Below are positions 4,530-53,448 of a stretch of DNA of 56,621 bases, piece by piece; within the stretch, counting starts at the first letter, position 1, and every line of letters starts with the position of its first letter. Made by a program: the position numbers and the translations under genes. Under the pieces are notes generated by a model. The model saw only the letters and a list, made by a program, of their open reading frames with translations. It was not told the DNA's origin and did not search any database. The DNA lies in assembly GCA_903826205.1 (NCBI GenBank), contig CAIKDP010000007.1:1-56621 (forward strand). Reading direction: 5' to 3'. This DNA comes from Akkermansiaceae bacterium. Lineage in GTDB: Bacteria; Verrucomicrobiota; Verrucomicrobiia; Verrucomicrobiales; Akkermansiaceae.

Positions 4530-4542
4530 GGGATAGGGGCAC

Positions 4543-4674
4543 TGCGGCTGGAAGCCACAGGTACATTGCTGCGGCTGGAAGCCACAGGTACATTGCTGCG
4601 GCTGGAAGCCACAGGTACATTGCTGCGGCTGGAAGCCACAGGTACATTATTGCGGCTGGAAGCCGCAGGTACCT
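4543..4674. repeat. 27-bp tandem repeat, about five copies
   Basis: Four perfect copies start at 4543, 4570, 4597 and 4624, and a partial, slightly changed fifth starts at 4651. The unit contains CTGCGGCTGGAAGCCACAG, whose TGGCTTCCAGCC-like core is partly self-complementary. The same 19 bases occur once in the opposite orientation at 33044-33066. The array fills the gap between two convergent genes and ends at the stop codon of the minus-strand gene. Confidence 0.95.
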
Positions 4675-14822: not shown

Positions 14823-15380
14823 CTAGGCGGAAATGACCGGCGCGTAAAGCAGGATGGCGCTGCCGCCGTATTCGCGTCGGTCAACCAACGACCACGCGTC
14901 GGCCGCCGGGCTCGGTTGGTGGGCGGCCACTTCCGCGATGAACCAGCCATCGGCGGCGAGCCGGGGACGCAACAACTCACCTGCCAGCAAGGTGCCGATT
15001 GCGTCATGATCACCGGGTTGTTTCAGATAGGGAGGGTCGGCGAAAATCAGATCATAGGTGGCCACCTCGCGGCGCAGATAGGCACTGACCTCGGCGCGCA
15101 CCACGCGCCCCCCGTCCAGCCGCGATTTTGTCAGGTTTTCGGAGATCACTTGGGCGGCCTGGCGGTGCTCATCCACAAACACGCAGGAAGCGGCACCACG
15201 GCTGAGCGCTTCCAACCCGAGGGCGCCGGATCCGGCAAACAGATCCAGCACGCGGGCGTTGTCCACCCGCTCGCCAAGGATGGAGAAGACGGCCTGGCGG
15301 ACAAAATCGGTGGTGGGACGGGCCACCGCCGAGGGGACCTTGATGGCGAGCCGCCCGGCTGTTCCGGCAATGATGCGCAT
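14823..15380 (-). CDS. rsmD: 16S rRNA (guanine-966 N2)-methyltransferase
   Basis: 185 residues, the standard size. MRIIAGTAGRLAIKVP is the typical RsmD start. The SAM-binding motif is VLDLFAGSGALGLEALSRGA, with an acidic residue at the end of the next strand (VFVDEH), and the catalytic motif is FADPPY. It methylates G966 of 16S rRNA in the 30S subunit. The gene lies 12 bp upstream of waaA and probably shares its transcript. Upstream, the whole gap to the AsmA-like gene is a composite repeat whose TCTAACTCTTCCCCCC end touches the ATG. Confidence 0.95.
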   Translation of the reverse strand: MRIIAGTAGRLAIKVPSAVARPTTDFVRQAVFSILGERVDNARVLDLFAGSGALGLEALSRGAASCVFVDEHRQAAQVISENLTKSRLDGGRVVRAEVSAYLRREVATYDLIFADPPYLKQPGDHDAIGTLLAGELLRPRLAADGWFIAEVAAHQPSPAADAWSLVDRREYGGSAILLYAPVISA

Positions 15381-15503
15381 GGGGGGAAGAGTTAGAGGTT
15401 GTTAGTTAGAGGTTATTGGGGGGTGAAGAATGAGACGAATGAGACGAATGAGACCTATGGGACAAATAACTGATAACACTTCTCCTGCCGTCTTGCGTCT
15501 TCA
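15381..15503 (-). repeat. Composite intergenic element filling the AsmA-like/rsmD gap
   Basis: Read on the minus strand, the modules are TGAAGACGCAAGACG (which supplies the stop TGA of the AsmA-like gene), TTATCAGTTAT, GTCCCATAGG and three copies of the 9-bp GTCTCATTC, AATAACCTCTAACTAACAACC, and TCTAACTCTTCCCCCC directly before the rsmD ATG. The same modules occur in the same order and orientation at 22336-22494. Confidence 0.9.
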
Positions 15504-21229: not shown

Positions 21230-22366
21230 ATGCCGAATCCTTCGCGTTTGCTCATTCTGACCGCCGCCTTCGGCGAGGGACACAATAGCGCCGCGAGAAA
21301 TCTCGCCCTTGCCCTCACCGCCGCCGGGGCCGAAACCCGCGTTTGTGACCCTTGCCTGCTCGGCACGCCATGGGTCACGCAGGTCCTCAGCCGGCTCTAC
21401 CGCTTCGCCACGGATTATCTCCCGCACGTTTGGAAGTATATCTATGATTCCATCGACCGCATTGATTTGAGCCGCACCGGCACCTTCATGTCACGCAAGC
21501 CCCAGCGCCTGCTGGCCACGCTCATCGACGATTATCAACCCACCGCCATCGTCAGCACCTATCCGCTTTACCCCTACCTGCTGCAGCGCATTTTCCACGA
21601 CACCGGCAAACATCTCCCGGTTTTCACCGTGGTCACCGACTCCATGGAAATCAACTCCGCCTGGCTGCGTGCTCCCAGTGATTGCTGGCTGGTCACCGAC
21701 CCTGCCACGCGCCAGGCGATGATCCGCAGCCAACTCCCTGCCGAACGCATCATCGACACCGGGTTTCCCGTCAATCCGGAGTTTGCCAGAATCACCCCGC
21801 TCGATGCGGCGGATCCTTGTGAACCCTTTCGCGTCTTGTTTTTTCCCACGGCCCGGCACCAAACCTTCGTCGCCAATGCGGCTGCCATCCTCGACGCCTC
21901 ACCGGCCGTGCGCCTCACCTTGGGCCTCGGGAAAAATGTCAAACTCCTGCATGCCGCCGCCCGCAAGCTCCAACAAGCCTATCCGCGCCGCGTCCGCATC
22001 ATGGGTTGGACCCGCCGCATCCCCCACCTCCTCACCCATCACCACCTCGTCGTTGGCAAGGCCGGGGGGGCCACCGTCCACGAGGCGATCGCCGCCCATT
22101 GCCCGATGCTCATCCACCACCTTGTGCCTGGCCAGGAGGAAGGCAATCTGCGTCTGCTCGAAGCGATCGGCAGCGGCAGCCTCGCCGCCACCCCCGCCAT
22201 TCTCACCGCCAAACTCAGGGCCATCCTCACCGGTCATGCGGCCTCCTGGCGGTCGATGAAACACGCCCTCGCCAGCCACAACCGCAATGCCGGCGCCATC
22301 GTCGCCGCCCGCTTTATCCTGGAAAAGACAGATAACTTGAAGACACAAGATGCAAGAGAAGAGTGA
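21230..22366 (+). CDS. MGDG synthase-type glycosyltransferase (GT28-like)
   Basis: 378 residues of a GT-B glycosyltransferase related to monogalactosyldiacylglycerol synthase and UgtP/MurG. The N-terminal segment LLILTAAFGEGHNSAARNLALAL is the family's acceptor-lipid motif. The C-terminal sugar-nucleotide site is VVGKAGGATVHEAIAAHCPMLIHHLVPGQEEGN. It probably transfers a hexose to diacylglycerol at the inner face of the membrane. The last codons (NLKTQDAREE then TGA) lie in the first module of a composite repeat, so the repeat has supplied the C-terminus. Divergent neighbours on the left are membrane proteins that could act on the same lipids. Confidence 0.85.
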   Translation: MPNPSRLLILTAAFGEGHNSAARNLALALTAAGAETRVCDPCLLGTPWVTQVLSRLYRFATDYLPHVWKYIYDSIDRIDLSRTGTFMSRKPQRLLATLIDDYQPTAIVSTYPLYPYLLQRIFHDTGKHLPVFTVVTDSMEINSAWLRAPSDCWLVTDPATRQAMIRSQLPAERIIDTGFPVNPEFARITPLDAADPCEPFRVLFFPTARHQTFVANAAAILDASPAVRLTLGLGKNVKLLHAAARKLQQAYPRRVRIMGWTRRIPHLLTHHHLVVGKAGGATVHEAIAAHCPMLIHHLVPGQEEGNLRLLEAIGSGSLAATPAILTAKLRAILTGHAASWRSMKHALASHNRNAGAIVAARFILEKTDNLKTQDAREE

Positions 22367-22494
22367 TCAGTTATCAGTTATCAGTTATCAGTTATCAGTT
22401 ATCAGTTATCAGTTATCAGTCCCATAGGTCCCATCAGTCTCATTCTTCCTCTTCCAATAACCCATAACTGATAACTTCTAACTCTTCCTCCCCC
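22336..22494 (+). repeat. Composite intergenic element filling the gap before the HAD gene
   Basis: The modules in order are TTGAAGACACAAGATG (inside the 3' end of the upstream gene), GAGAAGAGTGATCAG, seven perfect TTATCAG units (22371-22419), TCCCATAGGTCCCATCAGTCTCATTC, CAATAACCCATAACTGATAAC, and TCTAACTCTTCCTCCCCC, which touches the ATG at 22495. CAGTTATCAG can pair with the downstream CTGATAAC. It matches the element at 15381-15503 module by module. Confidence 0.92.
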
Positions 22495-30422: not shown

Positions 30423-30427
30423 GCTGG

Positions 30428-30455
30428 AATTTGAGATTTGAAATTTGAAATTTGA
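30428..30455. repeat. 7-bp tandem repeat, four copies
   Basis: Four units of ATTTGAR/ATTTGAT occupy most of the 44-bp gap between the DUF4159 and DUF58 genes. Like the TTATCAG array at 22371, it is a 7-bp-period AT-rich filler in an otherwise GC-rich sequence. Confidence 0.85.
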
Positions 30456-30466
30456 TATGGCCCGCT

Positions 30467-34850: not shown

Positions 34851-34879
34851 CCTCTAACTGATAACATCTAACTCTCCCC
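34851..34879 (+). repeat. Partial composite intergenic element before the FGGY kinase gene
   Basis: The sequence CCTCTAACTGATAACATC followed by TAACTCTCCCC touches the ATG at 34880. It equals the last two modules of the elements at 15381 and 22336, placed at the same position relative to the start codon; the earlier modules are absent. Confidence 0.8.
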
Positions 34880-50108: not shown

Positions 50109-50445
50109 GGTGAAAAATGTGTTAGTTGTGGAAATTTCCTATGGCGGGCTGGAAAACGGCGCTCAGGTAGTGGCCACCCGCCTCGCTGGCAAGTCTATTT
50201 TCCTTCCGCATGACGACACGAATGTCGTCACTCCCTACGGCTTGTGGCTAAGGAGCCACCACATTCCTGTGGTGGGGGCGGAAGAATCGTGCAGGCGTGA
50301 ACGTCGGGGGCTGCTAACGAGCCGCCGTTCCACCCCGACGACACGAATGTCGTCGCTCCTTATCCGCCGTCCCGACGACACGAATGTCGTCGCTCCTTAT
50401 CCGCCGTCCCGACGACGCGCATGTCGTCGCGCCTCAAGCATGGAC
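50109..50445. other. 337-bp gap, largely hairpin repeats
   Basis: The space between the pfp start and the ychF stop. Besides the hairpin array (50211-50429) it has a short AT-rich stretch next to pfp that may hold its promoter. No gene is visible. Confidence 0.6.
50211..50429. repeat. Array of GACGACA hairpin repeats
   Basis: Units of the form CGACGACACGAATGTCGTCG (stem GACGACA/TGTCGTC, loop CGAA; UUCG when read from the other strand) lie at 50211-50230 (with TGACGAC ends), 50336-50355, 50373-50392 and 50410-50429. The last three are spaced exactly 37 bp apart, with a nearly identical CTCCTTATCCGCCGTCCC between them. A variant with CCACCACA/TGTGGTGG and loop TTCC lies at 50256-50275. Together they occupy most of the pfp/ychF gap. 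Confidence 0.93.
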
Positions 50446-53375: not shown

Positions 53376-53448
53376 GGGGCATTAGCTCAGTTGGTAGAGC
53401 GTCTCGTTCGCAATGAGAAGGTCAGGAGTTCGAATCTCCTATGCTCCA
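53376..53448 (+). tRNA. tRNA-Ala (anticodon CGC)
   Basis: 73-nt cloverleaf: acceptor stem GGGGCAT/ATGCTCC, D-arm GCTC AGTTGGTAGA GCG, anticodon loop TTCGCAA giving CGC, and T-arm AGGAG TTCGAAT CTCCT. The discriminator base is A and CCA is not encoded, so it must be added after transcription. It reads GCG alanine codons. Confidence 0.95.

Follow-up and report, generated by a model that had tools for sequence, protein, structure and literature searches.

Heptad arrays of fixed polarity fill gaps between genes and recur as a frame of variable content

Introduction

The gap between a gene for an MGDG-synthase-type glycosyltransferase and the downstream gene for a HAD hydrolase is occupied by an ordered series of short repeat modules, and a second gap of the same stretch of DNA (56,621 nt, hereafter the window), between a DUF748/AsmA-like gene and rsmD, holds the same modules in the same order. 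The original prediction saw in them two copies of one dispersed composite that fills gaps exactly and whose halves can pair. This raises the question of which unit actually recurs between genes, in this genome and in others, and of what such a unit might do there.

Anatomy of the two composites

On the coding strand, copy 1 (22338-22494, plus strand) reads TGAAGACACAAGATGCAAGAGAAGAGTGA, seven GTTATCA heptads, three GTCYCATNN nonamers, CTTCCTCTT, CCAATAACCCATAACTGATAACTTCTAAC, TCTTCCTCCCCC and ATG, and copy 2 (15381-15503, minus strand) keeps to this order but has two GTTA units, four nonamers and CCAATAACCTCTAACTAACAACCTCTAACTCTTCCCCCC (Table 1). The two composites and their identical module order are therefore present in the sequence as predicted. 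Indeed, (i) copy 1 supplies the final codons and the stop of the upstream gene, TGA 22364-22366 ending the glycosyltransferase ORF (21230-22366), and copy 2 contains TGA 15501-15503, which ends the AsmA/DUF748-like ORF, and (ii) the other end touches the next start codon, copy 1 stopping directly before ATG 22495 and copy 2 abutting the rsmD ATG at 15380; for copy 1 both points had been claimed from the first reading. The identity of the seven units in the left arm of copy 1 suggests that this arm was lengthened by slippage.

Motif counts of the copies exceeded those of shuffled sequences (TTATCAG: 11 matches versus 1.7 expected), and searching the genome with copy 1 by blastn recovered copy 2 at E 1e-14, with 77 matches in more than 20 separate places. 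No Rfam family reached its gathering score for the element, the sole match in the window being a tRNA (53376-53448). An intrinsic transcription terminator was rejected on direct reading, there being no T run and the right arm being followed by CTCTTCCCCC and the ATG.

Other repeats occur elsewhere in the window. A 44-nt gap (30423-30466, minus strand) is taken up by an array of a different word, TCAAATN, again in four units. The convergent gap 4542-4672 consists of a 27-bp direct repeat in 4.9 copies (CTGCGGCTGGAAGCCACAGGTACATTG), to which CTGCGGCTTCCAGCCGC palindromes in other gaps of the genome are related, and a 37-bp repeat in 2.7 copies, with the palindrome CGACGACACGAATGTCGTCG within it, lies at 50334-50434, a further single copy being found near 50212.

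Table 1. Repeat features in the intergenic gaps of the window.
Feature	Position	Strand	Basis or remark
Copy 1, 5' module TGAAGACACAAGATGCAAGAGAAGAGTGA, last codons and TGA of the glycosyltransferase	22338..22366	+	direct reading; ORF 21230-22366
Copy 1, left arm, seven identical GTTATCA heptads	22370..22418	+	direct reading, motif counts
Copy 1, loop filler, three GTCYCATNN nonamers	22419..22448	+	repeat family of its own, spread over many phyla
Copy 1, right arm, CCAA and four TAACNNN heptads (heptads 22458-22482)	22454..22482	+	direct reading
Copy 1, G-free end TCTTCCTCCCCC, directly 5' of ATG 22495	22483..22494	+	direct reading
Copy 2, 5' module TGAAGACGCAAGA, its TGA being the stop of the DUF748/AsmA-like ORF	15491..15503	-	direct reading
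Copy 2, left arm, two GTTANNN heptads	15464..15477	-	direct reading
Copy 2, loop filler, four GTCYCATNN nonamers	15425..15463	-	direct reading
Copy 2, right arm, CCAA and four heptads, one with CAAC in place of TAAC	15391..15419	-	direct reading
Copy 2, G-free end TCTTCCCCCC, directly 5' of the rsmD ATG (15380)	15381..15390	-	direct reading
Third gap, three TAACNNN heptads forming a right arm without a left one, ATG 34880 following after 7 nt	34855..34872	+	
Fourth gap, four TCAAATN heptads, no left arm, 6 nt before ATG 30422	30428..30455	-	

A heptad frame recurs, not the composite

The idea of one dispersed composite holds in so far as many copies exist, but only the GTTA/TAAC heptad frame recurs among them, the other modules changing from gap to gap. 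The frame consists of a stop codon, (GTTANNN)n, a spacer, (NNNTAAC)n and an ATG; a listing of 28 array gaps of the genome shows it accompanied by extra modules that vary. This variable filler comprises the 9-bp GTCYCAT block, GAAGAC/GTCTTCT units and the C-rich end. A single conserved composite was rejected, since the modules outside the frame differ both between gaps and between sister species. The GTCYCAT nonamers were likewise rejected as a part of the element, since they form a separate repeat family that occurs in many phyla without clear polarity. Arrays of GTCYYATNN nonamers were seen in gaps of many unrelated lineages, such as Rikenellaceae, Prevotellaceae, Planctomycetes and Patescibacteria (L096, L105, L118, L133, L145, L162 and other loci), some of them as inverted pairs.

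Dispersal of the composite as a unit, as had been supposed, finds no support either, the same two gaps being nearly empty or filled with other words in sister species. The rsmD gap of relatives at 86% protein identity contains GTCTTCT arrays of differing length in otherwise similar sequence, and in most of the genus this gap holds a few bases only. The HAD gap measures about 17 bases in one sister at 86% identity and 4-10 in others, and in several species it carries unrelated heptamers, again pyrimidine-rich toward the ATG. Since the corresponding gaps of sister species do without the element, none of the copies is essential by itself, and because gap content is young and replaceable, a generic function or process is suggested rather than gene-specific regulation. 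The first interpretation is correct in outline and was attached to the wrong unit.

Placement relative to genes

Genome statistics were obtained from 852 kb of sampled stretches, part of them chosen via blast matches to copy 1, with genes called by a simple hexamer model; the sampling bias affects the number of arrays per genome, and placement relative to genes should stay unaffected. Gaps in this sample showed periodicities of 7 (z 21) and 9 (z 9), and TAAC ranked first when all words recurring at distance 7 in co-directional gaps were counted without bias. Arrays of TAACNNN with at least two units were absent from the inside of genes in the sampled stretches. Forward TAACNNN arrays ended at a median of 15 nt from the start codon, and the reverse (GTTANNN) arrays hugged the upstream stop in 13 of 13 cases. 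Among the gaps examined in this genome, arrays occupied 27 of 285 co-directional ones, as against 2 of 76 divergent and 1 of 55 convergent ones (p 0.007). The elements of eight further genomes comprised 16 co-directional, five convergent and no divergent cases, and they reached from a few bases after the stop to a few bases before the start. Virus-classed contigs gave 29 usual-polarity elements with both neighbours called, all 29 of them co-directional.

The element makes up 61-97% of its gap, with medians of 7 nt between the stop and the first GTTA and of 14 nt between the last TAAC and the start, so that the exact gap filling first noticed in the two composites is a general property; several gaps contain one arm only. 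Further copies thus exist, and their placement is strongly non-random relative to genes, which was the check proposed with the original prediction.

Polarity and spread

The pattern GTTANNNGTTA-N(25-55)-TAACNNNTAAC was found in 17 of the 190 genomes of the order, and the reverse polarity in none of the 190. Phylum-wide, 32 of 388 genomes carry the element in the usual polarity. Among virus-classed contigs, 21 stretches had the usual polarity and two the opposite one, both exceptions being mostly AATTGTT-type repeats. Virus-classed contigs (L408, 4271-5425; also L414, L415 and L416) have the element in three successive gaps, each time upstream of a normal Shine-Dalgarno site. In the reversed control, four genomes from one genus of the same order (G081, G084, G106 and G123) showed left arms of CAATNNN and right arms of ATTGNNN; these arrays are another word with fixed polarity.

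Unit number and word constraint

An arm usually has at most four units, with a mode at four and a sharp drop at five. Indeed, arrays of the pooled sets that had reached two units stopped there with a chance of 0.18, those that had reached three with a chance of 0.28 and those that had reached four with a chance of 0.77 (p 5e-8); the peak at four was weaker in G075 and in the phylum-wide loci, where five or more units were rare too. TAAC was intact in 94% of the interior array units, and adjacent NNN triplets of 3-4-unit arrays were identical in 4 of 43 and 6 of 86 cases, versus 3.8 and 4.1 expected if they were independent. The constraint lies on TAAC, whereas the NNN letters vary almost freely. 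Arrays of at least five units, to which the left arm of copy 1 belongs, are homogeneous in part, a pattern expected from slippage, and pure arrays of seven to ten identical units are present in the genome. In its native form the element repeats one constant word at a fixed spacing of 7 nt, the letters in between being free; slippage is superimposed on this. An all-frame stop cassette (TAA in three frames) found no support as an explanation, the C of TAAC being as constant as the TAA.

Folding potential

Array gaps had a mean folding z, relative to shuffles, of -2.9, versus -0.8 for other gaps; elements of other genomes reached -4.9, and those of virus-classed contigs -6.0. Copy 1 reached z -7.7 without its 5' module and -2.5 with it; copy 2 folded no better than its shuffles. 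Computed folding pairs the arms in heptad register in most elements and so bears out the proposal that the two halves can pair. Because GTTA always pairs with TAAC, the constant words alone guarantee this register. When right arms were exchanged among the elements of one genome, some being truncated to two units, the NNN letters paired no better with the other arm of their own element than with that of a different one (p 0.62). A precise stem held by compensatory change is not supported, since this swap leaves pairing undiminished, and the NNN letters are not under selection for pairing.

Translation starts

Shine-Dalgarno-like sequences precede 6-7% of the starts in this genome, versus 20% in the reverse-complement control, and none of 24 array genes has one. 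Akkermansia and some other Verrucomicrobia have been reported to be Shine-Dalgarno-scarce (PMC10783764), which matches the genome if it is placed there. Bases -8 to -1 before the ATG are 43% C genome-wide, and the C-rich run is thus partly a genome-wide trait. A G-free end before the ATG is found in 83% of array genes versus 27% of all genes. In some of the virus-classed contigs the right arm is followed by a normal Shine-Dalgarno site ahead of the ATG; replacement of the Shine-Dalgarno sequence as the sole role of the element is weakened by these contigs, which have both. TATAAT-like hexamers, looked at with TAAC as a possible -10 box in mind, are very rare upstream of genes.

Comparison with known heptameric repeats

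Two families of heptameric repeats resemble the frame. MacGregor (2015) described TAACTGA intergenic direct repeats in Beggiatoaceae, Cyanobacteria and some Bacteroidetes (PMC4679880). Like the arrays studied here, these repeats are intergenic, mostly point to a start codon within a few bases, have no Shine-Dalgarno site, and form short arrays with related 7-mers between the units; a minority of the repeats point back to a stop (PMC4679880). TAACTGA is also the commonest unit here, 14 tandem TGATAAC pairs were counted in the genome versus none in the reversed control, and start-directed arrays without a Shine-Dalgarno sequence were likewise found (median 15 nt; 0 of 24). In contrast, TAACTGA is not favoured over related heptamers here, TGA being one of many NNN triplets; the word is TAAC with a free NNN, arms lie on both sides of the gap, arrays stop at four and polarity is kept over 190 genomes. 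Related heptamers are rare in MacGregor's genome, and a two-armed element was not described there (PMC4679880).

Rehm (2015) reported GGGAATC / GGGGA(C/T)T heptamer repeats in Xanthomonas and Nostoc (PMC4692102). These share with the TAAC arrays the seven-base unit, the four-unit preference, the inverted pairs, the variation of length and sequence between related species, the position on the coding strand just after stops and on the non-coding strand just before starts, and the scarcity between divergent genes (PMC4692102); the four-unit preference, the strand placement at stops and starts and the divergent scarcity were each recovered here. Unlike TAAC, the word of Rehm is G-rich and could form G-quadruplexes, an ability to which the preference for four units was linked (PMC4692102). 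The core word of the present units (GTTANNN/TAACNNN) has no G-runs for G-quadruplexes. Since TAAC arrays cannot form quadruplexes and follow these rules all the same, quadruplexes do not explain the preference for four units in general. This comparison of TAAC with G-rich repeats is made in the present analysis and is in neither paper.

Proposed mechanism and alternatives

Since the arrays are absent from genes, nearly absent from divergent gaps, placed at stops and starts, and able to fold, they would best fit an RNA linking co-transcribed genes. What the computation establishes is the layout of the frame, its polarity and unit number, the constraint on TAAC, the classes of gap, the potential to fold and the fast turnover. 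The mechanism that we infer, favoured tentatively, is a weak intercistronic hairpin over the next start region, which the ribosome opens as it finishes the upstream gene. The element would presumably be transcribed along with its neighbouring genes, and its GUUA clamps would pair with UAAC clamps every seven nucleotides into a weak hairpin masking the region just 5' of the downstream start codon. On terminating at the upstream stop, a ribosome would halt some 7 nt or less from the left arm and would loosen it; opening would free the G-free, TAAC-containing stretch for initiation of the next gene, giving translational coupling or insulation, and the hairpin may additionally set message stability. 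On this reading, the intercistronic hairpin, with its heptad-spaced clamps, probably acts on translation or stability of the downstream message. The chief difficulties of the hairpin are the convergent gaps, which have no downstream start to couple, the one-sided arrays and the lack of NNN covariation.

Polymerase slippage, giving rise to tandem heptads, and template switching at quasi-palindromes, carrying them over to the opposite arm, could alternatively have produced neutral heptameric simple-sequence repeats that survive only where no gene or promoter is broken. Heptamers are generally over-represented and slippage has already been proposed for them (cited in PMC4679880; PMC4692102); the pure arrays of seven to ten identical units, copy 1 left arm included, the differing contents of one gap among sister species and the other heptamers and the nonamer in neighbouring gaps fit the same origin. 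This is nevertheless somewhat unlikely, since neutral slippage predicts geometric unit numbers, similar adjacent units, decay at all seven positions and both polarities, whereas a sharp stop at four, independent NNN (the slippage pattern being seen only in arrays of at least five units), a TAAC 94% intact and no reversed case in 190 genomes were observed. The constant word, the free spacer letters and the fixed 7-nt spacing would also suit a putative binding-site array, in which a protein reads one UAAC (or TAAC) per seven nucleotides and marks starts that lack a Shine-Dalgarno sequence; the right arm is G-free and near the start, and Shine-Dalgarno sequences are rare in the genome and absent from array genes. 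MacGregor proposed an OB-fold protein for TAACTGA, such as ribosomal protein S1, with four RNA-binding domains, or a cold-shock protein, which binds heptamers (PMC4679880). Such an array is considered unlikely: left arms and convergent gaps carry the complement and not the word in the sense strand, and in part of the virus-classed contigs a normal Shine-Dalgarno site intervenes between right arm and ATG. We know of no protein that binds TAAC heptads.

A mobile or REP/BIME-like palindromic element, or an integron attC site, is highly improbable. REP/BIME sequences are short palindromic, transcribed, extragenic and dispersed, and are spared from divergent gaps; the present element is similarly dispersed, gap-located, inverted, present or absent in orthologous gaps and found in co-directional and convergent gaps. 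Unlike REP/BIME, it has heptad-periodic arms, and its copies have no shared palindromic consensus, spacer and NNN differing within a genome whose elements share little beyond the heptad words; no insertion duplication or mobility gene was identified in a non-exhaustive search. The attC site is an imperfect hairpin between a stop and the next start, with a 7-bp core containing AAC/GTT, but it has a single core per side, RYYYAAC on the left and GTTRRRY on the right, and this polarity, opposite to that of the element, is absent in the 190 genomes.

Significance

The analysis points to the heptad frame as an intergenic control element that had not been described before, and away from chance repeat DNA. 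Intergenic repeats of seven bases have long been on record with no function assigned to them; their strict polarity, the halt at four units and the pattern of a constant word with a free spacer turn them from junk repeats into a testable element, for which neither slippage nor G-quadruplexes alone account. It is conceivable, if doubtful, that one kind of undescribed system operates in many bacterial lineages, reading or writing a short word at intervals of seven bases in four-unit arms that flank the gap, the word being lineage-specific (TAAC here, GGGAATC in Xanthomonas) and the spacing, unit number, polarity and avoidance of divergent gaps being constant. If this were true, the quadruplex explanation would be a special case, and one trans-acting factor or one array-making mechanism would lie behind the rule. 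If the hairpin does act on the coupling of operon genes, it would be a widespread and easily evolved control of expression, also where Shine-Dalgarno sequences are hardly used.
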